This document shows, piece after piece, positions 3,874 through 22,083 of a stretch of DNA of 22,083 nucleotides. Source of the DNA: a virus. The notes under the pieces were generated by a model. The model had not been told where the DNA came from. It searched no databases and saw only the letters and a program-made list of their open reading frames with translations. Numbering within the stretch: position 1 is the first letter of the stretch; every line of letters begins with the position of its first letter. The stretch covers positions 1 through 22,083 of IMG/VR virus record IMGVR_UViG_3300009593_000140, one strand, 5' to 3'. The position numbers were made by a program, and so were the translations under genes.

Positions 3874-4116
3874 CTATGTTAATTTTCCTATACCCTTTAT
3901 AAGTGTTCCGCTTCCTGTAACTGGTCCTCCCGAAACCGAAGCACCTGAAACTGTAGTAGTACACATTGTAAGTTCTACTAATGCTTGAGAAGTATAGTTG
4001 TGTACGGCCGTTGCAATTGCAGTTGCAACATATCCTTCGGAATTATTAGCAGAACCTTCTTTAAACGCTTTTTTAAGTTCCGCTTCTAATCCTGATTTAG
4101 CACTACTTAATGGCAT
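3874..4116 (-). CDS. Small conserved-looking baseplate-operon protein, function unknown
   Basis: This is an 80-aa protein. The N-terminal half is probably helical (residues 1-50: Ser/Ala-rich, with EAELKKAFKEG and an Ala/Thr-rich stretch). The C-terminal half is rich in Thr, Val and Gly (TTTVSGASVSGGPVTGSGT) and ends in GIGKLT. It has a single Cys, so it does not look like a metal-binding PAAR spike tip. The ATG at 4116 has a clear AGGAG ribosome binding site that overlaps the TAG stop of the 1344-aa gene. It lies between the Ig-repeat protein and gp25, so a baseplate or tail accessory role is likely but unproven. I recall similar small Gly/Thr-tailed proteins in marine T4-like phages, without a known function. 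Confidence 0.8.
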   Translation of the reverse strand: MPLSSAKSGLEAELKKAFKEGSANNSEGYVATAIATAVHNYTSQALVELTMCTTTVSGASVSGGPVTGSGTLIKGIGKLT

Positions 4117-4127
4117 AATATTTTCTC

Positions 4128-7100
4128 CTATGAAGTTGTTGTAAATGAATTAAAATATACAGTTGATGCTAATGTTACTCCTGTTTCATTCGTTCCACCT
4201 ACACCTGAAACAACTCTTATATAATATTGTGTAGATGCCGCTAATCCAGTAGTAGTTGTTGGAGTTAAAACAATTTTATTTCCAAATTCTCCTGATCTCT
4301 CAACTCTCATATCCGTAAAATGTCCAGAACCAAATCCAGATGCAGTAGACAATTCTATTTCATTACCTGAACCTATTGCGAATGTTGATAATAAGATCGC
4401 CTCATTAAAATGAATTACAATGGGATAATTTCTAGAAATTATTGAAGACTGATTAGGCATAGATCCAGACCCTCCTACTCCTAATTCAATAATCTGTCCA
4501 TCATAAGTCATTACTTCACATTGTATTGCTTTAAAATCATGATTCGATGCAGTATTAGCATAATATGTTGTATAAGTAGCAGTTGATGCAAGAGTTGTCC
4601 CACCCTTACTTTTTGCAGTATCAGTTACAGTTGCATAAATTTTTGAATTTTGTGTTAAATTTAAACTTGTATTTGCTAATATTGCAGGTCTTAACTCAAA
4701 AGAAGTATCATTATTCGAACCAGTAATTGAATCAAATGGAATTGCATTTTTAAAACTACTATCATATGAAAATATAATATTATAATCATGATTAGCAGGT
4801 ACAAGAGAACTTGCAGGATAATTTAAACTATCGACATTCATTGTTTGTGTAAATCCAACTTTAAAATTTGCAGTACAATTAATAGAATTTTGATTTGCAC
4901 TTAAAATTGATACTACATCTCCATCTGTATTTGCAAATTTTACATCAGAAACTACAGCCGTAGAGGCCATTTTAAATCCTGGTCCAGTTTGCTTGGTACT
5001 TTCATGCCCAACAAAATGTCCATTAGACTCTCTTCCTATAATTCTATCTGAAGAAGACCCTATAGTTGTACTGCCTGTTATAAAATCAGCATCAACTTTA
5101 AGATTTCTATAAGTAACAGTTTTTGGTGAAGAAGAAAGATCCACTGATATAACTTCTCCTTCTGGATCAGGTGTAATAGCAACATTATCGATTACAAAAC
5201 TATGAGTTGCATTAATTCTACAGGTTTCACCAGGAATTAATTTTGTAATAGTCCCATCTAATCCAGGAATTTCTGTATATCTCATGCTTGTTATTGCACT
5301 TACATAATTTGTAGCCGCAGGATTTGTACTACCATTGGGAGTCCATGCATCTGGAAGATAATCAAAAACTTTACCTTTACCTTTAGAAGTTAATCCTATA
5401 AATTCATCTCCCAATGTTACAGTTGCATCACTATTAGCAGGAAAAACACCATCGCCTAAGTCTCCAACATCTATAGGAGTGTTAGCAGGGTTTGTATTTG
5501 ATTTAATGCTTATTGTTCTAAGACCATTAATAATTTCTCCAGCAACAAAAGTATTAGTAGAATCTATTGTACTCGTTGAATTCAAAGTTAGAATTATAGA
5601 AGAAGTAACATTATCTTCCGCCATCTGATTATTTTTTGGAGAACCGTCTGAAACACCTTTTGAAACCTTTAATGTATAATTTGCACCTCCTGCTAAATTT
5701 GCTACAGGAGTAAAAGTAAATGTATCATTCTCTTCTTCGGTCTTTGAAACTACTGGTGAAGTAGAAGTCATTTGAACAACTGTATTAAAACTATCACAAG
5801 ACAATTGAACCGTTCCCACAGGAGTTGTATTGCTAGTAGCAGTGGTCACAGAAGCAATATTCATTTCTTCAGTAAATTGTATAATTATAGATTCAGTATC
5901 CAGATCAATATCAACGTCCTGATACGTACTAGGGGAACTTATTTCAGAAGCAGTTTTACTTTCTAAAACTTTTCCAGCAAATCCAGCAGTTCCCGCAGTT
6001 GATGAAATTGATATCTTTTTAATTTCGGGAGGATCTTCATCTCTTGAATAAATGGTTGATTGCCCTGTTTTAGGATCAATAATCTTTAATCCAACATCAA
6101 TCCCCTCTGTAGATTCATACTGATAAACAAGATTTGTTTTTCCTAAATCCTGAACATCATCTGTAACTCTAATTTTATAACTATGATTTCTTTTTATAGT
6201 TGAAGGAAGAAGTGCAAAAGACGAATTACCTTTACTTGGAGTTATTGAAACACATTGTTCAATATTTTCAAATCCATCATCAGACATTTGTACTGTACTT
6301 GAAGCAGAATCTTGTTCTCCAGCAAATACCGCCGATGATCCATCAGCGGAAATAATATGAGAACTATTAGAAACAGAAATCGTACTCGTATTCATTGACT
6401 GACTAAAATTTATAATAATAGCATTAAAAGCATCTGCAAAAGAACCAGTTGCCTTTGTTTGTATTTTTACAGGACCAGGAGCAGGACTTTGTACACCTAT
6501 AAATGATGATGCCGTTAATTCATAATGTAAAGTATTTGCCGTAGGTGCGGCTAATACTTTTGTCTCTAAATTATAAACACTATTTGTTGAACCCAATATC
6601 TTAATTTCATCCCCTTTAGATAAATTATGTGGATGATTTGTTTCTATAATAGCAGTTTTTCCTCGTCTTAAAATATTTGAAACTGTTAATTTTCTTGGAA
6701 ATGATTCCCCATCTTCAGGAAAGGTTCCTTCTACTTTTGGTGCAGAAGAATTAAAGGGATGTATATTATGTGTAGGATATGTGTTCGCCTTTATATGAAT
6801 TCTAAGAGGTAAATCACCTCCCTCTAAATCAATTATAGTGTTATTTGCAAATGAATCAGATGTAATTGCTCCAGCAGAAGTAGTTGCAACATATTTAAAT
6901 ACATTATCATCTTCATTAAATTTTACTAATTTTCCTTGAAGTGAAGGAGTAGTTACAGTATCACTTTGTTTAATTAAATTAAATGTGTTATTGGTCATCT
7001 CTGAAGGAGTATTGAAAACCATTTGTGGCACAGATACTATTTTTTTTCGTGATACGTATGTTGTACCACCCGTACCGTCTGATTCCTGTCCTCTCACATA

Positions 7101-8162
7101 TGTACATTTAACTTGATCCCCCTTCATTAAATTTCTATAATAATTTAAACGACCTGCACCACTTGTTGTTCCATCTACAGGAATAGAAAAAGTATCAGAG
7201 GTAAGTTCAGTTGCAACATATGATCCTACGGCAATTGCATTTCCACTAACCATATCGTAAACTTGTACTATATCATTATCTGCTAAACCATGACCAACAT
7301 TTGTAATAACTACAGGATTTGTAGCAGTATAAGCACAATTCATTTGATATGCATCTTCATTTAACTGATATGTAATTGTCGAACTGTCTATTTTTTTAAT
7401 TTTATAACTACCAACTTGTGTCCCAGAAACATGAACTAAATTTTCATCAACGACCAATGGTCCTTGATTTTCATCCGCTACTTTCAGCATACCTTCTGTT
7501 TGTATAGTAAACCCACTATAATATTCTCCTGTTGTCACAAATGATCTAGAGTTATCAGTAACAAAACCTTTTTCAATATCATATGAAATAGCATGACCTG
7601 TTACATCGAATACATTCTCATCATCCATTCTAAAAAAATAAGTAGTATTAGAAGAAAGATTTGCTACTGGAGTCATTGTAAAAGAAATATTATCTTCCGT
7701 TGTAGGAAGAGTAGTCATTTCTACAAATTCATCATTTGCCGCTTGAAGTGGATTCGCTCCTGTTTGATCATAAACTCCTGCAACACTCTGGGCACCACCA
7801 TCGACACTTAATTTCAATCCCTCTAATCCATTATCTACTGGATTTGCACCTGCTTCTGGAGTACGAACAACATGTGTCAATCCAAAGGTTCCCTTTTTAT
7901 TATATTTTTCATCTGGTACATTAACATCTTTAGTAAATGTTACTACTGTGGCAGGATTTACTTCATCTGTAAATGTTATAGTAACTTCACTCTCTGTATT
8001 TGCAAAAATAGATTCATTATTTAAATCGTCATTGGAATAATAACTTGTTCCTGAAAAACCATCAGACCCACTTGTTATCTCGGCCGTGGTAAATCCTCCA
8101 TAATGATATGTTTTTGACTCACCATCTTCTGTTGTATAAGTTCCTGTTCTGCTAATAGACAT
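4128..8162 (-). CDS. Giant Ig-like-repeat virion protein (SbsA/Big_5-type domains)
   Basis: This 1344-aa secreted-style beta protein has no signal peptide. Five divergent repeats share the pattern of a strand ending F-x-x-x-(M)-N, then T-P/R-P-x-x-x-L and a Y-x-(I/L/F)-x-V strand followed by a D/S-G-V turn. They start at about residues 59, 581, 758, 1099 and 1247 (for example INFSQSMNTSTI, IQFTEEMNIASV, VGFTQTMNVDSL). This is the layout of bacterial Ig-like SbsA domains. Two other modules at about 285-330 and 505-550 contain HGLADNDIVQV and HPHNLSKGDEIKI, like the FCCH-type modules of marine phage structural proteins. The ATG overlaps the previous stop by one base and has a GGGAG site. Its role is probably a baseplate decoration or adhesin binding the cell surface, which is inferred from fold and position. 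Confidence 0.85.
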   Translation of the reverse strand: MSISRTGTYTTEDGESKTYHYGGFTTAEITSGSDGFSGTSYYSNDDLNNESIFANTESEVTITFTDEVNPATVVTFTKDVNVPDEKYNKKGTFGLTHVVRTPEAGANPVDNGLEGLKLSVDGGAQSVAGVYDQTGANPLQAANDEFVEMTTLPTTEDNISFTMTPVANLSSNTTYFFRMDDENVFDVTGHAISYDIEKGFVTDNSRSFVTTGEYYSGFTIQTEGMLKVADENQGPLVVDENLVHVSGTQVGSYKIKKIDSSTITYQLNEDAYQMNCAYTATNPVVITNVGHGLADNDIVQVYDMVSGNAIAVGSYVATELTSDTFSIPVDGTTSGAGRLNYYRNLMKGDQVKCTYVRGQESDGTGGTTYVSRKKIVSVPQMVFNTPSEMTNNTFNLIKQSDTVTTPSLQGKLVKFNEDDNVFKYVATTSAGAITSDSFANNTIIDLEGGDLPLRIHIKANTYPTHNIHPFNSSAPKVEGTFPEDGESFPRKLTVSNILRRGKTAIIETNHPHNLSKGDEIKILGSTNSVYNLETKVLAAPTANTLHYELTASSFIGVQSPAPGPVKIQTKATGSFADAFNAIIINFSQSMNTSTISVSNSSHIISADGSSAVFAGEQDSASSTVQMSDDGFENIEQCVSITPSKGNSSFALLPSTIKRNHSYKIRVTDDVQDLGKTNLVYQYESTEGIDVGLKIIDPKTGQSTIYSRDEDPPEIKKISISSTAGTAGFAGKVLESKTASEISSPSTYQDVDIDLDTESIIIQFTEEMNIASVTTATSNTTPVGTVQLSCDSFNTVVQMTSTSPVVSKTEEENDTFTFTPVANLAGGANYTLKVSKGVSDGSPKNNQMAEDNVTSSIILTLNSTSTIDSTNTFVAGEIINGLRTISIKSNTNPANTPIDVGDLGDGVFPANSDATVTLGDEFIGLTSKGKGKVFDYLPDAWTPNGSTNPAATNYVSAITSMRYTEIPGLDGTITKLIPGETCRINATHSFVIDNVAITPDPEGEVISVDLSSSPKTVTYRNLKVDADFITGSTTIGSSSDRIIGRESNGHFVGHESTKQTGPGFKMASTAVVSDVKFANTDGDVVSILSANQNSINCTANFKVGFTQTMNVDSLNYPASSLVPANHDYNIIFSYDSSFKNAIPFDSITGSNNDTSFELRPAILANTSLNLTQNSKIYATVTDTAKSKGGTTLASTATYTTYYANTASNHDFKAIQCEVMTYDGQIIELGVGGSGSMPNQSSIISRNYPIVIHFNEAILLSTFAIGSGNEIELSTASGFGSGHFTDMRVERSGEFGNKIVLTPTTTTGLAASTQYYIRVVSGVGGTNETGVTLASTVYFNSFTTTS

Positions 8163-11100
8163 TATACTAGACTCCCACTTAAAACTCGTACAGGTTGAAC
8201 ATCAAATCCTATACTGGTTACCTTTTCTCTCCTTAAACTCTGAGATTCTTCATTTAATATAGTGCTTCTAACTAAAACTTTATATTTACTTGTTGATCTT
8301 GCTAATGGAAGTTTAGGTCTTAAATCTATATTAAAAAATTGTTGCACCCCTTCTCCTCCTCCAGATGCAGATGTTCCAAATTGAATATCAAATTGATAAT
8401 ATACATTATCCGCCCCCCATTCCATCCTACCACTATCTTGATTACGTTCATATGTTCCTTGAAACAAAACAATCGAATCATCAATAGTTTCAACATAATT
8501 TTCATTATTAGTAAGTAGAACACTTTGAGTTTGAATTCTGGGACTAAAATCTACTGATCTTTCTGCTTGTTCTTCAACAATTTTTATTTCCTCTTCAGAT
8601 AGTGTATGGGCATCATTTGTAAAAACAATTCTTATAGTACCGTCTTGTTCTATTTGTGCATCATCTATATTTTTCCATTCTCCATCAGAATTTTGTTGTA
8701 TGTCATAAACTTCTGGTTGAATTTTTTCAGCAATAGTATCACCAACATTAAAAAGATTTGCTAAGAATCCTGCTCCAAGAGTTTCTAATGCATTAAAGTT
8801 ACTTACAAACTTTTTATATTTTTCGGAATCAGCACCTTGTGCAAAAAAGACTAATCCACCACAATATTTTAAATTACTCAATTCACTTATTGGTACTGGT
8901 TCTGTTGGAGCATCTGGATCTTCTACTTTTTGTACTGTTGGTCTTAAAATTTTTCTTTTAACTTTCTTAGGTAGTCCAGTAAACGGATCATCAATCACAA
9001 CTTCTTTTTCAATTGTCTCTAAACTTATTTCACTTACAGTATTTTTTGCGGCCTTTAATTTCATATTTTGTAATTTAGTTTTGAAATTTTTAACGCCTTT
9101 TCCATTAAAAGATTTAGAATATATTCCCGCAGAATTTAATCCTTGAGAAAAGAAAGCAATTAAATTTTGAATTTGATCATTTAATTTTTTAATATTTTTT
9201 ATCTGATTCTCTAAAAATTTAATATATTCATCAATATCTTTTACTATTCCTTGAACTTGTTTTTTAAATTTCTTTACTTGTCCTATTGCCTCTTGTATAG
9301 TAGAACCATATATAGGAAACAAATCTGAAACCCTTACATATTTCCAATTAGGAGTATCGTTTTTATTTGTCGTAAATAATTCAAAAGGACGATTTGGCGG
9401 ACCTGGCTCACCACCATCTGTTGGTATTTTTGTATCCCAAGAAAGAAGTAGACCATCAGGAGGACTTATATTAGGAACAAGCCAGGGATCTTCTTCAAAA
9501 GACCCATCATAATTCTGAAAACCTATAGAAATTGTAAGTTCTCTCATTTCATATGGAGTATCAACAACTCCTCCCACATCCATTTCATCATCATAATTAA
9601 ACAAATCTGTTTCTTTAAGGTCTGTAGTTGAAATTTCAACTCCATCAATTTTAATTGAAGCAACACTATAATTAACACCTAATGAAGGCACAACATCTAA
9701 CAATTTACCATAATTGAATTGAAACTTGCTATCAGCAAATACTTCATCTTTATAAAGGTTATGTGCCTGTTCAGAAAGATCATATGGTTTTAAAAATTGA
9801 TGATCAATTATCATTCCCTTTTTTAAACTCCTTACAAATCTCATATATGAAGCAACAACTCTTTGACTATCTGCACTATCTAATTCTTTAACCATTCTCG
9901 CTTTATACACATTTATTTTTGGAGTTCCTTGTGTCTCCCATTGATTTTTCATACCGATTCTAATTCGTTGTCCTTCTCTATCATTAGGAATAATATCTGT
10001 TATAACATTAGAATCCGCTTTCATTGTTCCAAAGAATGATAGATTTCTTGATGCTTGAGGCTTCTCTTGTGTATCTGGTCTAAACATAGGATAAGATAAT
10101 TGATTTAACTCCCCATCTTCTCTAATTGCACATCTAAATATTGGAAGTGTTGCCGAATTATAAGACTTCAAATTTGTTTTAATTATTTCACCTCTAACAC
10201 CCTTAACAATAACTCTATTTGATATTACCATTCCATTTTTAATGACTATTGGCTTATGCTCAACAACTGTAGCAGTAAAATTTGATAGTCCCATCACACC
10301 ACCTTCTTGAACTATTCTATCTCCCTTTTTAAACATAGGTATTTTATGAGTTGCTCCTACAGTTGAATTTGTAGTATCATCACTATCTTTATATGTTCCA
10401 TCTGGAAGTTTTTTCTCCCCCGTGTATGGTTTAAAATCTCCTGTTTCTGAAAACCATTCTGCATAGGGCTTACCGCTAACAAGTTGTCTTGTAGAGTCTA
10501 CTGGTTTAGTTAAAGGTTCTCCCATTTCAATTGTTTTCGTTTCTTCATCATTCTTTCCATTATCCGGTGAAGCCAATCGTTTCAATAATTCATCACTAAG
10601 AACATCTCCAAAATAATCTGCAAAAGATTGTACAACCTGAATTACAGAATTTATAGTTGGTAACGCAAACATTATAATATGTGCTTGATAATGACCAGAC
10701 CCAGATGGTCTATTATTATCAGGAGACGAACTTTCTAAAGACCTTACAATTTTATCCACAAATTCAGTAGGAGGAAGTTCTTTAACTATTAATTCTTTCT
10801 GAGTGAAATCTATAGTTTTAAGAAGAGTGTCCCTTGCATCATCCATTAGACTTCCATCTCCTGAATTTTCAACATCTCCACCCTGCCAAGTGTCAGGATG
10901 AAAAAAATTACGAATACTAAGAAGTGTATTATAGATATCGTCTTTTGTCATATCTGTATTTGAAACATCTCCTAAATCTTGATCTGGAGTTAATAGTGCA
11001 GTACCATTTTTTGTTTTTATAAAGTCTCCATCAGCACCTATCGCCATTGTTTTAGGATCTAATCCTCTTGCGGCCGCCGCAAGACCAATAATTGCTTGAT

Positions 11101-11428
11101 CTAATTTCTCGGTATTTACACGTGGAGGATATTGTCCATGTTCCCAAGGCCAAACAGTAACGCTACCCATTCCTATATTTTGCAAATCTTCAAGAGCAAC
11201 TATTAAAGAATCAATAGTTCTAATCAAAGGACCAGTAAGAGGATTTTTCATCATCACTAAAAAGGTCTTTGTTATTTGAAAAAACTGTATTAATTTATCA
11301 GCAACTTGAGAAAAATTATTTCCAAAAGTGTTTACACCTGTTAAAAATGCATTTAGTGCGACTGCCCCATCACCAAATATTGCCTGAGTTTTTTGTTCTA
11401 AAATAAGTTCTGTGTCTTGATCAGCCAT
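8162..11428 (-). CDS. 1088-aa baseplate-operon structural protein
   Basis: I do not recognise a T4 counterpart. Residues 1-95 are mostly helical and hydrophobic. Residues 350-700 are mixed alpha/beta with many short strands. A clear coiled coil spans about 711-760 (KKFKKQVQ through FLENQIKNIKKLNDQIQ). A basic linker near 817-832 follows, then a beta-rich C-terminal region to 1088. There is no signal peptide or enzyme motif. Its place between the gp5-like hub and the Ig-repeat protein suggests a baseplate or tail-tip component. Its start codon overlaps the stop of the preceding 54-aa gene by one base (TAATG), and an AAAGAGAA stretch upstream may act as ribosome binding site. Two of its segments, residues 5-13 and 735-749, recur in that 54-aa protein. 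Confidence 0.8.
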   Translation of the reverse strand: MADQDTELILEQKTQAIFGDGAVALNAFLTGVNTFGNNFSQVADKLIQFFQITKTFLVMMKNPLTGPLIRTIDSLIVALEDLQNIGMGSVTVWPWEHGQYPPRVNTEKLDQAIIGLAAAARGLDPKTMAIGADGDFIKTKNGTALLTPDQDLGDVSNTDMTKDDIYNTLLSIRNFFHPDTWQGGDVENSGDGSLMDDARDTLLKTIDFTQKELIVKELPPTEFVDKIVRSLESSSPDNNRPSGSGHYQAHIIMFALPTINSVIQVVQSFADYFGDVLSDELLKRLASPDNGKNDEETKTIEMGEPLTKPVDSTRQLVSGKPYAEWFSETGDFKPYTGEKKLPDGTYKDSDDTTNSTVGATHKIPMFKKGDRIVQEGGVMGLSNFTATVVEHKPIVIKNGMVISNRVIVKGVRGEIIKTNLKSYNSATLPIFRCAIREDGELNQLSYPMFRPDTQEKPQASRNLSFFGTMKADSNVITDIIPNDREGQRIRIGMKNQWETQGTPKINVYKARMVKELDSADSQRVVASYMRFVRSLKKGMIIDHQFLKPYDLSEQAHNLYKDEVFADSKFQFNYGKLLDVVPSLGVNYSVASIKIDGVEISTTDLKETDLFNYDDEMDVGGVVDTPYEMRELTISIGFQNYDGSFEEDPWLVPNISPPDGLLLSWDTKIPTDGGEPGPPNRPFELFTTNKNDTPNWKYVRVSDLFPIYGSTIQEAIGQVKKFKKQVQGIVKDIDEYIKFLENQIKNIKKLNDQIQNLIAFFSQGLNSAGIYSKSFNGKGVKNFKTKLQNMKLKAAKNTVSEISLETIEKEVVIDDPFTGLPKKVKRKILRPTVQKVEDPDAPTEPVPISELSNLKYCGGLVFFAQGADSEKYKKFVSNFNALETLGAGFLANLFNVGDTIAEKIQPEVYDIQQNSDGEWKNIDDAQIEQDGTIRIVFTNDAHTLSEEEIKIVEEQAERSVDFSPRIQTQSVLLTNNENYVETIDDSIVLFQGTYERNQDSGRMEWGADNVYYQFDIQFGTSASGGGEGVQQFFNIDLRPKLPLARSTSKYKVLVRSTILNEESQSLRREKVTSIGFDVQPVRVLSGSLV
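11066..11084. repeat. GC-rich perfect hairpin inside the 1088-aa gene
   Basis: An 8-base stem (TCTTGCGG against CCGCAAGA) encloses a 3-base CCG loop. It encodes Leu-Ala-Ala-Ala-Ala-Arg on the minus strand and is among the most GC-rich spots of the window. It may simply follow from the Ala codon choice; a function in the mRNA is not shown. Confidence 0.6.
11390..11416. repeat. Direct repeat copy A (start of 1088-aa gene)
   Basis: This 27-base segment encodes the DTELILEQK peptide on the minus strand. It matches 11554-11580 at 24 of 27 bases, including an uninterrupted 15-base run in the codons for ELILE. The copies are 164 bases apart and in the same orientation. Confidence 0.8.
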
Positions 11429-11592
11429 TATTGTTGATTCTCTTTCATAAGTTTTTTTGCATTTTCTATTTCATTTTCCAAAAATTTTATGTAAGTAGTA
11501 TTAAATTCTGCAACTTGATTTAATACATTTACCATATTACCATTAACTATTGGTTTTTCTTCTAAAATAAGTTCTTCGTCTTTTTCTATCAT
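11428..11592 (-). CDS. 54-aa mini-gene related to two segments of the 1088-aa protein
   Basis: This is a short gene linked to both neighbours: its ATG overlaps the gp5-like stop by four bases (ATGA) and its TAA overlaps the next ATG by one base. The product begins MIEKDEELILEEK and ends in a charged helix (TYIKFLENEIENAKKLMKEN). Residues 5-13 match residues 5-13 of the 1088-aa protein in 7 of 9 positions, and residues 34-48 match its coiled-coil residues 735-749 in 12 of 15 positions. The tight coupling and the retained protein similarity argue that it is a real gene. A role as partner, chaperone or assembly regulator of the 1088-aa protein is inferred. No family is recognised. Confidence 0.75.
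   Translation of the reverse strand: MIEKDEELILEEKPIVNGNMVNVLNQVAEFNTTYIKFLENEIENAKKLMKENQQ
11554..11580. repeat. Direct repeat copy B (start of 54-aa gene)
   Basis: This is the partner of the segment at 11390-11416 and encodes DEELILEEK on the minus strand. The three mismatches change two residues. This suggests a recent duplication or gene conversion of the 5' end of the 1088-aa gene, or strong constraint on the peptide. Confidence 0.8.
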
Positions 11593-13604
11593 GCTTTAAA
11601 TACCTTATCTATTTCTTGTTCAAATTTATCGAAATCTGCCATATTTTGTGCTGGACCACTCGGCCCCGAAGGTGTGGGAAAAGTCATTGCTTTTAATGCT
11701 TTATGTAAATTCTTTAATAAAGTATGAACATCTGATCCTTTACCTTTTAAAGCAATAAGCCCACCACTACTTAGTTCTACTTTTGCAAATTTATTTTCTA
11801 TTTGAACATCAGCCTTAGTATCAAATTTAATACCTGATGAGGCAGATGCTTCAAATTTTCCAGCCAATGCTTTTGTAGTAATATCTCCCAATTTGGTCGA
11901 TATATCTACTCCTTGCCCATCTACGTTTAAATGAGTAGCACTTCCTTTTGGGCCACTATTTAATTTAATCCCTCCACTGGCTCTAGACATATTTTGAGAT
12001 TCAAGTGTAATGGGTTTTAACATACATGTTTGTTTAATACCTGCCCCATGCAAGCCCTTTACAGATACGTTAAAACTACCTTCGGCAGTTTGTTCAAAAT
12101 CAGATCCAGCATTAAATTTTTGATTTCCAGCGGCATTATTTTCTATACTTGTCGCAACAAGTGTAGATTCTCCTGTTTCTGTTCTTTCTGATTGAGATTT
12201 TTTTGAGACTTTATTGGTTGGATCCCAGAGATCAAGTTGCATTTTTTCTAACTTAAATACAGAAGCACCCTCATCTTTTGCAGTTCCTATAAATTTAATA
12301 TTTTTTGCTTCTACAATAAAATCACCATTTCTTATTTGAGTATCAAAACTTCCTTCTCTGATTTCTAAATTTACATCACCAGAACCATCAAAAAGAATTT
12401 TAGAATTACCTGCACTTCTAGAATTATAAACACGATCCAATCTTCCTCTAACATTTTTTATATCATCACCTATAATATGAGTATAACTTTGACCATCTAC
12501 TAGATTATATTGATGACCAACAGTTGAATCTACCCTAGAACCATCAGGATAAAACTCAAGAAAACTTTGAGTTCTATGTAATAATCTAACTCTTTCTCCC
12601 CCAGGAGTATCATCAAATTCTAATAAATGTCCACTCTCGGTATATGTTACATGATTATAAGGATACTCAGGATTGAAATGTGTAGGAATTACATTTTGCC
12701 AACCAGATCCATCTGATTTTTCAACTCTCCCATGTATTTGTTCTTGAGCAGATTGTAAACTACCTGATATCCTATGCTGATTGAGTTGAATAGCACCCAA
12801 TGGCATTTTTGCAGACTTAGGATCTTTACTTTGTTTATCAAAGGTTTCTTGTTTTCTGTTTTTAAATTTTGTTCTATTTAAACCTAATAAATTAGTAGAT
12901 GGTAAAGATAAAATAGGTTTACCATCTGGATCAAACACCATTCTATTTTCGTCTGGATTTCTAGAAAATAATTGTAAAACCAATACAGGTTTAGCCTTTG
13001 GACCAGGAGCCCCCGATTCTAAATCTTTCGATTTATAAACACTTGCTTGTACTTTAGATTCGTCTTCGTTTTTACCAAAAAATATTGTAGAATTTTTTAA
13101 CGGTGTATCTCCTGTAAATGAGTATTGCATTTCCGAATATTGATTATGTTCTATAACTTTTGCGGGAGATCCTGTACGAAATCTATCAATGGCTAAGGGT
13201 GGATATGGAGCATTTTGTCTTTCTGCCATTGTTCTAGGATCATAAAACCCTCTATCAGGATTTGAAAAATTTTCGGGTATTCCTCCTGATGAACCCAAAA
13301 TAACAGGTTCTTGTGCTTCTCTTCCATCTCTAAAGAAACCAAATACATGAGTTCCCTCTACTAATCCAGTAGGTGTACGACCTATTCCAGATATAGCCGC
13401 AGAAGTTACAGGTTGTATAACATCTGCCCAAGGAAGATGTTCTGTGGGAATATTTTCTTTATCGTCTGTATGAAAACCTATGCATCTTACTTTAACTCTT
13501 CCAAGATAAAGAGGATCTTTTCTGTCTTCTACAACTCCGTAAAACCAGACAAATCCTTCTAATCCCATAAAGTCTGTAAAATCCATCATGCTTACATTAC
13601 TCAT
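11589..13604 (-). CDS. 5: Baseplate hub/spike protein gp5-like, without lysozyme domain
   Basis: This 671-aa protein has an N-terminal OB-fold domain at about 15-110 (FYGVVEDRKDPLYLGRVKVR, then LPWADVIQPV and GTHVFGFFRDG), the gp5/VgrG hub signature. A second gp5/VgrG-type segment is at about 325-380 (SGHLLEFDDTPGGERVRLLH, then FYPDGS and VDGQSYTHIIGD). From about 400 to 625 there are short beta repeats suited to a triple-stranded needle, then a C-terminal helix and a Pro/Gly linker. T4 gp5 carries a lysozyme domain between these parts; I see no T4-lysozyme-like Glu-8-Asp-5-Thr arrangement or fold signature here. It would form the trimeric spike that punctures the outer membrane. The start has a strong GGGGAGGT site, and the ATG directly abuts the gp27-like stop. 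Confidence 0.9.
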   Translation of the reverse strand: MSNVSMMDFTDFMGLEGFVWFYGVVEDRKDPLYLGRVKVRCIGFHTDDKENIPTEHLPWADVIQPVTSAAISGIGRTPTGLVEGTHVFGFFRDGREAQEPVILGSSGGIPENFSNPDRGFYDPRTMAERQNAPYPPLAIDRFRTGSPAKVIEHNQYSEMQYSFTGDTPLKNSTIFFGKNEDESKVQASVYKSKDLESGAPGPKAKPVLVLQLFSRNPDENRMVFDPDGKPILSLPSTNLLGLNRTKFKNRKQETFDKQSKDPKSAKMPLGAIQLNQHRISGSLQSAQEQIHGRVEKSDGSGWQNVIPTHFNPEYPYNHVTYTESGHLLEFDDTPGGERVRLLHRTQSFLEFYPDGSRVDSTVGHQYNLVDGQSYTHIIGDDIKNVRGRLDRVYNSRSAGNSKILFDGSGDVNLEIREGSFDTQIRNGDFIVEAKNIKFIGTAKDEGASVFKLEKMQLDLWDPTNKVSKKSQSERTETGESTLVATSIENNAAGNQKFNAGSDFEQTAEGSFNVSVKGLHGAGIKQTCMLKPITLESQNMSRASGGIKLNSGPKGSATHLNVDGQGVDISTKLGDITTKALAGKFEASASSGIKFDTKADVQIENKFAKVELSSGGLIALKGKGSDVHTLLKNLHKALKAMTFPTPSGPSGPAQNMADFDKFEQEIDKVFKA

Positions 13605-17043: not shown

Positions 17044-17930
17044 GAATTATTCCAATCTACATCGGAATTTATTTGATAATCTTCTCGCAATCTTTCCCTC
17101 GTATAAATTTTATTTTCTTTAATAGATAAACTTAAAGTAGCAGATAAAGGAGCATTATCCTTAAAAAATGTAGGAGTTGGTGTTCCTTCTGAATATTCAA
17201 CTGTAAAGTCAGTTATAGATGATTTTCTTATCTTTATTACTCCCGTATGGTGTTTTGTATAATCTTTTCCTGTAGTACCATAAAATTCCATATCCAATAA
17301 ATCAGGAGTTTCTGCAATTCCTGTCAATTGAGAAGTATCATCGATAGTATCTTCAATCATTTTTGGTAACATTGCTTTTTTAATTTCTGTAATAATATCT
17401 GTCATTACATTACTCTCTGCTCTAGATTTAGGCACAAGTTTAAAATTAAAATTAAATTCTCTAAATCCTACACTATTAAACACATTTGTTATAAATGGAT
17501 TTTGAATCGTATTCGTACCTTTTGCAACTCCTGCTTTTAAACCAGGTGTGCCACTTAATGCTACATCTGCGGCTACCCTAGCAAATGTTTGTGGATTAAA
17601 TGATTTTACACCTGTTTTTGCAATATTCGTTAATCTATCTAAACTTGCATTTCCTATAGTGGATCCTAGTCCAACCGCTCCCATCACATCAAATTCTGCA
17701 TTATCATATTTAACATTAACGGCATCATTTATCTCTGGGTAAGGCAATGCAATTACTGTTTTTATTTTACCAGTAGCCTGGTCTCTTCCTCTATTGAAAA
17801 ATTTCAATAAAACAAATTTTCTTGCTTCAGGCGCATCTCCTGCAGAACTTCCTATATTATCAGGAAATCTCATAATTTTACTTGTCTCTATGGCGGCAGT
17901 TACTAAGCCTTTTAATCTATCATCTGACAT
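17040..17930 (-). CDS. Baseplate tail-tube cap/initiator, gp48-like (copy A)
   Basis: This 296-aa protein is the first gene of the leftward operon. Its middle has NPFITNVFNSVGFREFNFNF then KLVPKSRAESNVMTDIITEI and a KAMLPKM stretch, the same block as in the next gene and in T4 gp48. The end has the matching strands IRKSSITDFTVEYSEG and ATLSLSIKENKIYTRERL. It is therefore a paralogue of the 381-aa protein. One of the pair may replace T4 gp54 in layering the tube start. The start has an excellent AAGGAG site at 17935-17940, five bases before the ATG, and a CTAAATA late-promoter-like element at 17952-17958, which suggests a short leader mRNA of about 15 bases. Confidence 0.75.
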   Translation of the reverse strand: MSDDRLKGLVTAAIETSKIMRFPDNIGSSAGDAPEARKFVLLKFFNRGRDQATGKIKTVIALPYPEINDAVNVKYDNAEFDVMGAVGLGSTIGNASLDRLTNIAKTGVKSFNPQTFARVAADVALSGTPGLKAGVAKGTNTIQNPFITNVFNSVGFREFNFNFKLVPKSRAESNVMTDIITEIKKAMLPKMIEDTIDDTSQLTGIAETPDLLDMEFYGTTGKDYTKHHTGVIKIRKSSITDFTVEYSEGTPTPTFFKDNAPLSATLSLSIKENKIYTRERLREDYQINSDVDWNNS

Positions 17931-17942
17931 TATTCTCCTTGA

Positions 17943-17950
17943 TATACATA
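17943..17950 (+). promoter_or_regulatory. Late-promoter-like TATACATA for the head-completion unit
   Basis: The plus strand reads TATACATA, one base off the T4 late consensus TATAAATA, ending nine bases before the gp4 ATG. It lies back to back with the minus-strand CTAAATA. A start six or seven bases downstream would leave almost no leader, and the gp4 ATG has no Shine-Dalgarno sequence. Confidence 0.4.
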
Positions 17951-17951
17951 A

Positions 17952-17958
17952 TATTTAG
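17952..17958 (-). promoter_or_regulatory. Late-promoter-like CTAAATA for the baseplate operon
   Basis: The minus strand reads CTAAATA, then 22 bases to the ATG at 17930 with AAGGAG between. It sits in the only divergent gap of the window, exactly where a promoter for the leftward operon is needed. A transcript starting about six bases downstream would include the ribosome binding site. Confidence 0.6.
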
Positions 17959-17959
17959 C

Positions 17960-18391
17960 ATGAGTTACAAAGGAAAATATAAAGTTAAAAAAATAAGAAA
18001 ATATCGTGGTGATCCTACTAAAGTGACTTATCGTTCTTCGTGGGAAAGAAAATTCATGACTTATTGTGAAGAAAACCCAATGATATTAGAGTGGTCAAGT
18101 GAAGAAATAATTGTTCCCTATAGGTCTCCTCTTGATAGAAAAATACATAGATATTTTCCCGATTTTTGGATTAAAATAAAACGAGGAAATGGTCTAACAG
18201 AGTGTATATTAATAGAAATTAAACCCAAAAAACAAACTTCACCACCCAAAAAACCTAAAAGAGTAACAAAAAGATATCTTACTGAAGTATACGCATATTC
18301 AAAAAATGAAGCAAAATGGAGAGCCGCAAAAGAGTTTTGCAAGGATCGTAAGTGGAAATTTGAGATAATTACAGAAGATCATCTTTTTTAA
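17960..18391 (+). CDS. 4: Head completion protein gp4 (PD-(D/E)XK nuclease fold)
   Basis: This 143-aa protein matches T4 gp4 (150 aa), needed to make packaged heads competent for tail joining and reported as a nuclease. The sequence shows the nuclease core: conserved SSWERKF with Glu29, Pro-Asp at 67-68 in the segment YFPDFWIKIK, then Glu86-Ile-Lys88 in LIEIKPKKQ, i.e. PD-X17-EXK. A basic region follows (PPKKPKRVTKR) and a helix with NEAKWRAAKEFC, a conserved end in this group. I take the ATG at 17960 and not one 26 codons upstream, because the upstream residues are read from the complement of the divergent gene and the remaining length and N-terminus (MSYKGKYK) fit the family. It is the first gene of the rightward unit. 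Confidence 0.92.
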   Translation: MSYKGKYKVKKIRKYRGDPTKVTYRSSWERKFMTYCEENPMILEWSSEEIIVPYRSPLDRKIHRYFPDFWIKIKRGNGLTECILIEIKPKKQTSPPKKPKRVTKRYLTEVYAYSKNEAKWRAAKEFCKDRKWKFEIITEDHLF

Positions 18392-18398
18392 CTAAATA
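18392..18398 (+). promoter_or_regulatory. Late-promoter-like CTAAATA upstream of the gp2-like gene
   Basis: CTAAATA follows directly on the gp4 stop and is five bases before the ATG at 18404, the same spacing as at gp25. No Shine-Dalgarno sequence is present between gp4 and this gene. Confidence 0.45.
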
Positions 18399-18403
18399 AC
18401 ATT

Positions 18404-18985
18404 ATGGCACAACAAGACCAGACATTTTTAGATAAATTAAAAACTGCAATAAGAAAAGGAAGAAGTGAACCTACTACACGTAATGCTTCACAATGGTTTC
18501 GCAGAAAAGTAGGAGCATTAAGAGCAGAATTGCGAGGAAGATTTAGTGAAGTTGATTCTGCTGATGAATTTTATAGAACTGCTAAAAAGTCAGGAGATAA
18601 TTCAATTACTCCTGGAAAAATGGCGGCATATTTCTATGATCCTAAAACAAAAAAGAAACTACCGTACTATGACAAGTTTCCTTTGATTATGTGTGTAAAA
18701 ATGTATAGTAATGGTTTTTTAGGATTGAATTTTCATTATCTTCCTCCATTGCTTAGAGCAAAACTAATGGATGCTATTGATCGATCAAAGTCTGTAAATT
18801 ATGAAGGTCTTGCAAGAATTAAACAAATTAAACCAACTGTAAAAAGATATCTTTACAAGCATATAAGTTCAAGAGTTGTTATTGTAGATGAAGATGAAAA
18901 AGAAATCGCATTGTTTTTACCAACAGAAAGATTTAAAAAAGAAAACAAACTTGTCGTTTGGGGAGATAGTAGGAGAATGATTTAA
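18404..18985 (+). CDS. 2: Putative DNA end protector, gp2-like
   Basis: This 193-aa protein has a basic N-terminal helix region, then RNASQWFRRKVGALRAELRG, PGKMAAYFYDPKTKKKLPYY and FPLIMCVKMYSNGFLGLNFH followed by YLPPLLRAKLMDAI at about 85-130. The C-terminal part has RVVIVDEDEKEIALFLPTER and a terminal VWGDSRRMI. I recall this set of motifs from T4-like phages under the name DNA end protector, the protein that coats packaged DNA ends so that they escape host exonuclease. T4 gp2 is longer (274 aa), so the name is tentative. In T4, genes 2 and 4 are adjacent, as here. It has no Shine-Dalgarno site but a CTAAATA element five bases upstream. The stop overlaps the next ATG by one base. Confidence 0.6.
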   Translation: MAQQDQTFLDKLKTAIRKGRSEPTTRNASQWFRRKVGALRAELRGRFSEVDSADEFYRTAKKSGDNSITPGKMAAYFYDPKTKKKLPYYDKFPLIMCVKMYSNGFLGLNFHYLPPLLRAKLMDAIDRSKSVNYEGLARIKQIKPTVKRYLYKHISSRVVIVDEDEKEIALFLPTERFKKENKLVVWGDSRRMI

Positions 18986-20346: not shown

Positions 20347-20540
20347 TTTGTTGTCATAATAATTTACAAAATTACTATACTTTAACATTTCAATTGATGC
20401 AACATCATAAATATAATTTAACAGAGATTGAAAATATGATGCCTTTTGAAAGAGACCTTTATGTTGAAATGTTAATTAAACATTTAGAAGAAGAAAAAAA
20501 GAAAACTGAAGACCAAGAAAGAAAGTTAAGAAAGCACTAA
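20343..20540 (+). CDS. Frameshift extension of the gp26-like chaperone (G/GT-type second product)
   Basis: After a -1 slip the frame is open for 65 codons to the TAA at 20538, giving a 306-aa fusion. The segment begins IVCCHNN and continues YYTLTFQLMQHHKYNLTEIE, then MMPFERDLYVEMLIKHLEEE and a lysine/glutamate-rich tail. The only upstream ATG (20397, giving 47 aa) has no Shine-Dalgarno sequence and falls in the middle of what looks like one helical domain, so independent initiation is unlikely. In lambda-like and many other tailed phages the second chaperone gene is made exactly this way and recruits the tail tube to the tape measure. The stop overlaps the tape measure ATG by one base. The fusion is inferred, not demonstrated. 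Confidence 0.7.
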   Translation: MVCCHNNLQNYYTLTFQLMQHHKYNLTEIENMMPFERDLYVEMLIKHLEEEKKKTEDQERKLRKH

Positions 20541-22083
20541 TGGCCAGAAAACCTCACAACTATGTGCATTTTCAAAATCTAGTAGAAGAATTGAAATCTC
20601 ATAATGAATTAAATAATGAGATGATTGCCGAAAAGTTAGATCAAAATAATGCGATTTTAACAAAGATGCTTAATTTTGATGTAACAAAAATTAAAAATGA
20701 TAAAATTAAAGATAAAGAAGATAGACTTGAAGATAAGCCAAAAAAATGGAAGGGTCTTGATTCTAAATCTAGTATGAAATTACCAAGATTCTCAGGAAAA
20801 GGTTTCATGGGAATGTTGGGAGATTTTTTATCTACTGCACTTTTAGGAATTCCAGGTGGATTGAGAAAATTTTTACCAGCAAAACTTGGTATGGGTTTAA
20901 TGGGTACTTTAGTAAAGGGGATGGCTCTATTGGTCGCAGGACCAAATCTGCTTACCGCATTAGAGGCGGCATTTAAATCAGAAAATTTTTCAGGGGGATT
21001 AACCGCATTTGTTGATTCTTATTTTGCATCAGATAAAGAAGGATATAAAGGAGTATTTGAAGCCGCTTATGGTGGATCCTATAAAGGAGCATTGCTTGGA
21101 ATGATTGCAGGACCAAAAGGTGCGATAATTGGTGGTTTAATTGGAGGAGCAATATCGGGCCTAAATTATATTTTTACTGATGGTGGTAAAATGGATTTTG
21201 AATCACTAAAAACAAAAATGAGGGCACATTTAAAAGATAATCTTAAATTCTATGCCGCCGCTGGTATAGGATTAAAGATGGCTGGTTTGGGTTTCAAAGC
21301 AGGTGGAATTCCAGGAATGATAGCAGGTGGAATACTTGGTGCTGGTATTGGTTTACTTAGTGGCGATATTATATCCAAAGCATTAGAGGCGCAAGATAAA
21401 GACCCAAAGTTGTCTTTTGGTCAGGCATTATCCAAGGCATTTAAACAACATTTTATAGATATAGCAAATGAAGGCGATGGACCGTGGGCGGCAGGAGGAG
21501 CAGTTTTAGGTGCTATAATGGGAGGAAGTTTTGGACCTCCTGGAATTATAGCAGGTATGTTATTAGGTGCCGCCCTAGGACTTTTAACTGGTCCTGTTCT
21601 CGGAGAAGCATTCAAAATTCAAGAAGGTACTGGAGGCAAACTTTCAGATGCTTTCAAAGAGGCATTATGGAAGAAAGTATCAGAAGGAAGACTGGCTGGA
21701 TATCTTAAATCCGCCGCTTTTGGTGCCGCTTTATTTGGAACTGGTGCTTTATTAGGGTTAGGTCCAGTTGGATTTATGGCAGGTGCTATTATAGGAGCAG
21801 TTGTCGGAATTCTCGCACAATGGCTTACCAATATTGCAATTGATATTCTCGGTCCTAAATTAGCAAAATTGTTTGGACTTGAAAAAATTATTCCTCAAGA
21901 AGTGCATAATATGAAAAAAAATGCAGAACTGTCTCTAGCAAATGAAAAGTTCAACGATCAACTCTCAAACATGTCAGCGGCCGCATCCACAATTGTTACC
22001 TCAAAAAAACACACAAAGATGGGCAAAAGTGCGAGTGAATTAATTAAATTGTACAGAAACTTGCTTACTGAAAAAGCAAATAT
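20540..22083 (+). CDS. 29: Tape measure protein (gp29-like), N-terminal part
   Basis: 514 codons are open to the right edge, so the C-terminus is missing. Residues 1-75 form charged helices (HFQNLVEELKSHNELNNEMI, then KIKNDKIKDKEDRLEDKPKK). Residues 90-145 are hydrophobic. From about 176 to 440 there are four tandem units of roughly 65-76 residues, each with a Gly/Ala-rich hydrophobic hairpin built around a Gly-Pro turn (Gly194, Gly259, Gly335, Gly411) followed by a charged amphipathic stretch. After 450 the sequence becomes helical and polar again. Position directly after the tail assembly chaperone and the extended helical/hydrophobic composition identify a tape measure; T4 gp29 fills this role. 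The tape sets tail length and may leave with the DNA to form a membrane channel. The start overlaps the previous stop (TAATG). Confidence 0.82.
   Translation, partial: MARKPHNYVHFQNLVEELKSHNELNNEMIAEKLDQNNAILTKMLNFDVTKIKNDKIKDKEDRLEDKPKKWKGLDSKSSMKLPRFSGKGFMGMLGDFLSTALLGIPGGLRKFLPAKLGMGLMGTLVKGMALLVAGPNLLTALEAAFKSENFSGGLTAFVDSYFASDKEGYKGVFEAAYGGSYKGALLGMIAGPKGAIIGGLIGGAISGLNYIFTDGGKMDFESLKTKMRAHLKDNLKFYAAAGIGLKMAGLGFKAGGIPGMIAGGILGAGIGLLSGDIISKALEAQDKDPKLSFGQALSKAFKQHFIDIANEGDGPWAAGGAVLGAIMGGSFGPPGIIAGMLLGAALGLLTGPVLGEAFKIQEGTGGKLSDAFKEALWKKVSEGRLAGYLKSAAFGAALFGTGALLGLGPVGFMAGAIIGAVVGILAQWLTNIAIDILGPKLAKLFGLEKIIPQEVHNMKKNAELSLANEKFNDQLSNMSAAASTIVTSKKHTKMGKSASELIKLYRNLLTEKAN

Follow-up and report, generated by a model that had tools for sequence, protein, structure and literature searches.

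A conserved small gene paired with a large baseplate-operon gene in uncultured T4-like phages

In the viral DNA analyzed here, a gene encoding only 54 amino acids (S) directly precedes and overlaps the gene of a twentyfold larger, 1088-aa protein of the baseplate operon (B). S is a real, conserved gene, and it is always paired with B at the loci where B was inspected and had a readable start. As judged from sequence comparisons, the similarity between the N-termini of S and B is a property of whole families, the motif changing jointly in S and B from one family to the other. It is quite conceivable that S is a stand-alone form of the N-terminal anchoring module of B, which would dock beside B, the two proteins forming an obligate pair in the baseplate.

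The baseplate operon and its S and B genes

The window (the whole stretch of DNA analyzed, 22,083 bases, GC content 32%) is a single IMG/VR virus record, in which the baseplate operon is read on the minus strand. In operon order, its genes are as follows.

minus strand: 296-aa protein, first listed in operon order
minus strand: 381-aa tail tube cap (PHROG 230)
minus strand: 192-aa gp53-like wedge protein (PHROG 232)
minus strand: 572-aa hub-like tail protein (PHROG 350)
11589..13604, minus strand: 671-aa gp5-like baseplate hub/spike protein (PHROG 430, E 5e-79; Pfam Gp5_OB, 7e-25)
11428..11592, minus strand: S, 54-aa open reading frame; extended N-terminal motif plus amphipathic helix
8162..11428, minus strand: B, 1088-aa baseplate-operon protein, open reading frame; partner of S
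4128-8162, minus strand: 1344-aa protein after B (Pfam Big_5)
3874-4116, minus strand: 80-aa gene before gp25, unannotated family
minus strand: gp25, 166 aa, assigned by position and homology to relatives
minus strand: gp6, 629 aa, assigned by homology to relatives
minus strand: long protein after gp6, continuing beyond the window

Homologues of gp5, gp53, gp25 and gp6 within a single operon mark a T4-like baseplate locus, and the operon is of this type, carried by uncultured, probably marine phages. The gene content around S and B is like that of T4-type baseplate operons (gp53, gp27-like hub, gp5, gp25, gp6), and gp6 of the window is homologous to the gp6 proteins of HTVC008M, Melnitz and cyanophages (tblastn, 2,403 phage records). 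The operon differs from the T4-type ones in S and B themselves, which were not found in cultured phages (tblastn of either protein, no match in 50,697 phage records).

Several further features of the locus were observed. The gp5-like protein contains an OB domain but gave no match to a lysozyme domain in Pfam. The 1344-aa protein carries bacterial Ig-like (Big_5) domains in three matched stretches and is likely to be a large decorated baseplate or fibre protein. Most members of the 80-aa family end in L-S; two tandem copies occur in three related loci (L010-L012; L011 8978-9507, L012 8956-9488), and the family loosely resembles a 157-aa protein ending in GPLS in the family-2 loci described below. 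The direction of transcription switches near 17930-18404, and a glycine-rich, tape-measure-like frame, called by composition only, lies on the plus strand (20540-22083), opposite to the baseplate operon.

The open reading frame proposed for S in the initial annotation is borne out, its coding strand being the minus strand. Its overlap with both neighbours is also correct and amounts to 4 nt with the gp5-like gene (11589-11592) and 1 nt with B (11428). The two peptide matches that had drawn attention to this gene were reproduced exactly: residues 5-13 of S and B are identical at 7/9 amino acids and 24/27 nt, and residues 34-48 of S match residues 735-749 of B at 12/15 amino acids and 33/45 nt. 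The segments concerned are:

11554..11580, minus strand: N-terminal motif of S, residues 5-13 (DEELILEEK), at the same offset as B 5-13
11390..11416, minus strand: N-terminal motif of B, residues 5-13 (DTELILEQK)
11449..11493, minus strand: coiled-coil segment of S, residues 34-48 (YIKFLENEIENAKKL)
9182..9226, minus strand: coiled-coil segment of B, residues 735-749, inside predicted helix 705-766

Occurrence of the S-B pair in relatives

Neither the S nor the B family is represented in the databases searched. Sequence searches of Pfam, PHROGs and solved structures gave no convincing match for either protein; S had no Pfam match above noise, and B had none in Pfam or PHROGs, where a significant tape-measure match was also lacking. 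The AF2 model of the window B (18 sequences) is of low confidence (pLDDT 65, pTM 0.33), as is that of a family-2 B (pLDDT 64, pTM 0.51). Fold searches with B yielded no trustworthy relative (best E values of 0.05 and 0.18 in the PDB and 0.03 in BFVD), and the best hit of a VIA fold search (Z about 8) was an unrelated channel. The fold of B may already be known but hidden by the low-confidence models.

With S or B alone as the query, nothing was found in the phage collection or IMG/VR, and an alignment of B found nothing in genome contigs. Relatives were reached only via the neighbouring gp6 and then via B alignments. The gp6 search yielded 80 IMG/VR loci, among which relatives of S and B sit together, and the B alignments led to 26 loci of one family (family 1) and 42 of another (family 2). 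The initial annotation had suggested a search of marine phage genomes for the pair; in IMG/VR it occurs in two diverged families. Wherever the start of B was readable in an inspected locus, B was immediately preceded by S (52-80 aa), and no relative without the small gene was found among these loci. At one locus (L134) the start of the match is displaced, and S is visible in the same contig read as L018. A search from one S led only to loci that the B searches had already given, or to a contig that ends inside B.

In 41 of 46 pairs the overlap of S with B is exactly 8 nt long (ATGGCTGA); in the window it is 1 nt. The upstream neighbour of S is the gp5-like gene in family 1 and a gene of about 900 aa in family 2; because S stays with B while the upstream gene changes, its constant companion is B and not gp5. 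Purifying selection acts on S, with dN/dS below 1 in 36/37 comparisons (0.05-0.7, mostly 0.05-0.5); in the one remaining comparison dS is as low as 0.04. Homology between the two B families is clearest in their C-terminal helical region (hhalign E 2e-8), and the S proteins of families 1 and 2 are probably homologous as well (p 3e-4).

Three candidates were rejected during these comparisons. L002 was dropped as a false relative of gp5, and neither a 52-aa gene of Melnitz nor a 65-aa gene of L031, both located in the same region, is S.

N-terminal and coil similarities between S and B

The N-terminal match in the window contains a 16-nt exact identity at an equal offset from both ATG codons, and an exact match of at least 16 nt anywhere was obtained in 0.2% of B codon shuffles. 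In a single BLASTP comparison of S with B, the E value was 0.012 for the N-terminal match and 2e-5 for the coil match. The S N-terminal 9-mer scored 27, against a chance score of 26 elsewhere in B, so that the match is not convincing alone in this genome; it gains its significance from its position and from the relatives.

In family 1, S starts with E-E-x-[ILV]-[ILV]-[LF]-E-[EQ] or a near variant and B with x-[VI]-[VIL]-[LF]-x-Q or a near variant, and the best match of the S 9-mer within the whole of its own B was the B N-terminus in 13/19 pairs. In family 2, both proteins switch to a W-K type start, after which the helix begins at a constant spacing of 9 (S) or 10 (B) residues; the W-anchored 6-mer ranked first in 15/24 pairs, and the next 16 residues ranked 1-9. 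Alignment of S profiles with residues 1-75 of B (hhalign) gave p values of 0.011 for family 1 and 0.006 for family 2, and the real score was reached by 0/300 and 1/300 column shuffles, respectively. The N-termini of the gp5, gp6, gp25, gp7, 1344-aa and 80-aa proteins scored lower against the S profile. The similarity thus runs from N-terminus to N-terminus, in the same register and above chance in both families, as expected of a paralogue of the B N-terminal module. The low-confidence AF2 models place the motif of the window B in a short strand (residues 9-12) with two helices after it (21-37 and 39-59), and the W-K motif of the family-2 B in short strand residues followed by a helix (22-56), this stretch being itself of low confidence.

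The joint change of the motif in S and B would fit binding to a common site. The covariation of the N-terminal peptides, proposed initially as a check, was evident in this shift between families, but within family 1 without the window it was not significant (p 0.15). Chance look-alikes of such a short hydrophobic motif do occur: EEDVVFEE near the start of the window gp25 resembles the S motif, and this likeness was rejected since it is absent from the gp25 proteins of the relatives.

The coil match is outstanding in the window, where the 15-mer has a BLOSUM62 score of 63 and the runner-up among approx. 6,300 15-mers (long frames, minus strand) a score of 23; in the low-confidence model of B the segment lies inside helix 705-766. 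Of the 12 identical residues, 5 use different codons. The initial annotation took such synonymous differences as a sign of selection on the protein. Constraint at the protein level is supported by the dN/dS values, but the synonymous differences themselves point to the absence of recent DNA copying and are not positive evidence of selection. Identical coil residues share their codon in 46 of 65 cases (42 expected), and this lack of an excess likewise gives no sign of recent DNA copying.

In the family-1 relatives, the offset homologous to B 735 was the best or tied best of approx. 1,100 in 12/18 pairs, a count limited by the non-independence of sequences within a clade, and it was within the best 13 in all 18. 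The coil scores, however, are about 20, near the genome-wide background maximum. The full family-1 S profile found its best B match in the coil helix (p 0.012, 1/100 shuffles; p 0.033 and 2/100 with the window left out), whereas that of family 2 found it at the N-terminus (p 0.032, 0/100 shuffles). S matched its own B better than the B of other clades (p 0.006 with six representatives, 0.025 without the window). On these comparisons, the coil match is exceptional in the window only and weak in the relatives. The earlier idea that S could mix into the same coiled coil as B is thus the less well supported one, depending mostly on the window.

Possible roles of S

We infer the site, stoichiometry and function of S from these patterns. 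Since S repeats the N-terminal sequence pattern of B, we consider it probable that both proteins dock at equivalent positions of the baseplate. S and B would be made from their coupled, overlapping genes as an obligate pair, S consisting of a short extended motif and then an amphipathic helix. The motifs of both proteins may enter one type of site on a hub or wedge partner, with the S helix packing beside the B helices. In this way, S could fill B-equivalent positions without the body of approx. 1,000 residues, for example at the junction between the three-fold hub and the six-fold wedges. A more specific version, in which S and B share a docking module and fill equivalent sites unequally (e.g. 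three B and three S round the three-fold hub), appears doubtful; if true, gene duplication would solve the symmetry mismatch between hub and wedge, which A-1(L) meets with two conformations of one protein.

In Anabaena phage A-1(L), six chains of gp16 alternate between two conformations and join the trimeric hub to the hexameric wedges (PMC10966104), a precedent showing that baseplates do face this requirement. This LysM/gp53-like hub-wedge connector is like the S-B pair in its proposed job only, a single docking mode that would serve non-equivalent hub-wedge positions (PMC10966104), and it differs in using one protein in two conformations, where S and B would be two proteins whose sizes are far apart. 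S does not belong to the LysM connectors represented by A-1(L) gp16 and T4 gp53: it has 54 aa and no Pfam match, and the gp53-like protein of the window is encoded separately, apart from S.

Chaperone activity is common among small helical proteins whose genes lie immediately ahead of that of a large tail protein, and in the lambda gpG/gpGT type of tail assembly chaperone the small protein is encoded just upstream of, and overlapping, the large tail protein. S resembles these in that its gene is small, lies just ahead of the gene of a large tail protein and overlaps it, and S might accordingly be an assembly chaperone or placeholder that binds the B helices or occupies the B docking site until B is inserted, and then leaves. 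The small size and helical nature of S, its coupling to B from directly upstream and its resemblance to both the docking motif and the coil of B all favour such a role, but S and B have no conserved frameshift fusion of the gpG/gpGT kind, nor does a tape-measure gene follow S, B being located between gp5 and gp25 and having no tape-measure match. In the window (11428-11470, minus strand), the B frame is -1 relative to S and runs without a stop for the 14 codons before its ATG, and a -1 slip at the A7 run of S (11452-11458) could on paper fuse S to B. This fusion was rejected as not conserved, since the relative frame of S and B in the window differs from that in 45/45 relatives and the B frame is closed 0-7 codons upstream in 18/20 family-1 pairs. 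We consider the chaperone role somewhat unlikely, but it is the main rival to the reading of S as a structural subunit, and nothing yet separates the two. A similar arrangement occurs in cyanophage Syn1 (L163 824-5861), where the apparently helical 64-aa Syn1_098 (T4-like GC 112) overlaps the start of Syn1_099, a virion structural protein of 1618 aa. No common motif was seen by eye, and these proteins were rejected as homologues of S and B; the arrangement is at most analogous.

Two further explanations concern the origin of the similarity itself. It could have arisen by convergence, in an AT-rich genome, of amphipathic helices that begin with acidic and hydrophobic residues, S having a separate role and its adjacency to B being incidental. 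The low GC content, which enriches for K, N and I codons, the near-background coil similarity in several relatives and the lack of a codon excess at the coil are all compatible with this, but the N-terminal profile similarity exceeds shuffles and the N-termini of other genes in two families, in the same register in both, which makes convergence unlikely. Alternatively, the N-terminal match could reflect gene conversion at the DNA level or a shared start-region signal, and not protein function. Identical residues of the motif share their codon in 50 of 57 cases (32 expected), and the 16-nt exact match in the window points the same way. Start-region codon bias alone, or gene conversion, could each give this excess, and we therefore draw no inference from it. 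In diverged family-1 members and in family 2 the pattern is retained with other residues, and three family-2 B proteins (L018, 7002-9566; L140, 2381-4618; L147) carry an N-terminal extension, an additional domain, before the W-K motif. The motif is thus kept internally, away from the start codon, so that an extreme N-terminal position is not required. An origin in gene conversion or a start signal is for these reasons very improbable.

The S-B pair represents a conserved, unannotated pair of baseplate proteins of uncultured T4-like phages. A gene of approx. 55 residues, easily taken for noise, has stayed next to its large partner gene even in lineages between which most of the B sequence can no longer be aligned. 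Should S indeed be a stand-alone docking module, the pair would offer a simple genetic handle on how non-equivalent positions in the baseplate are filled.
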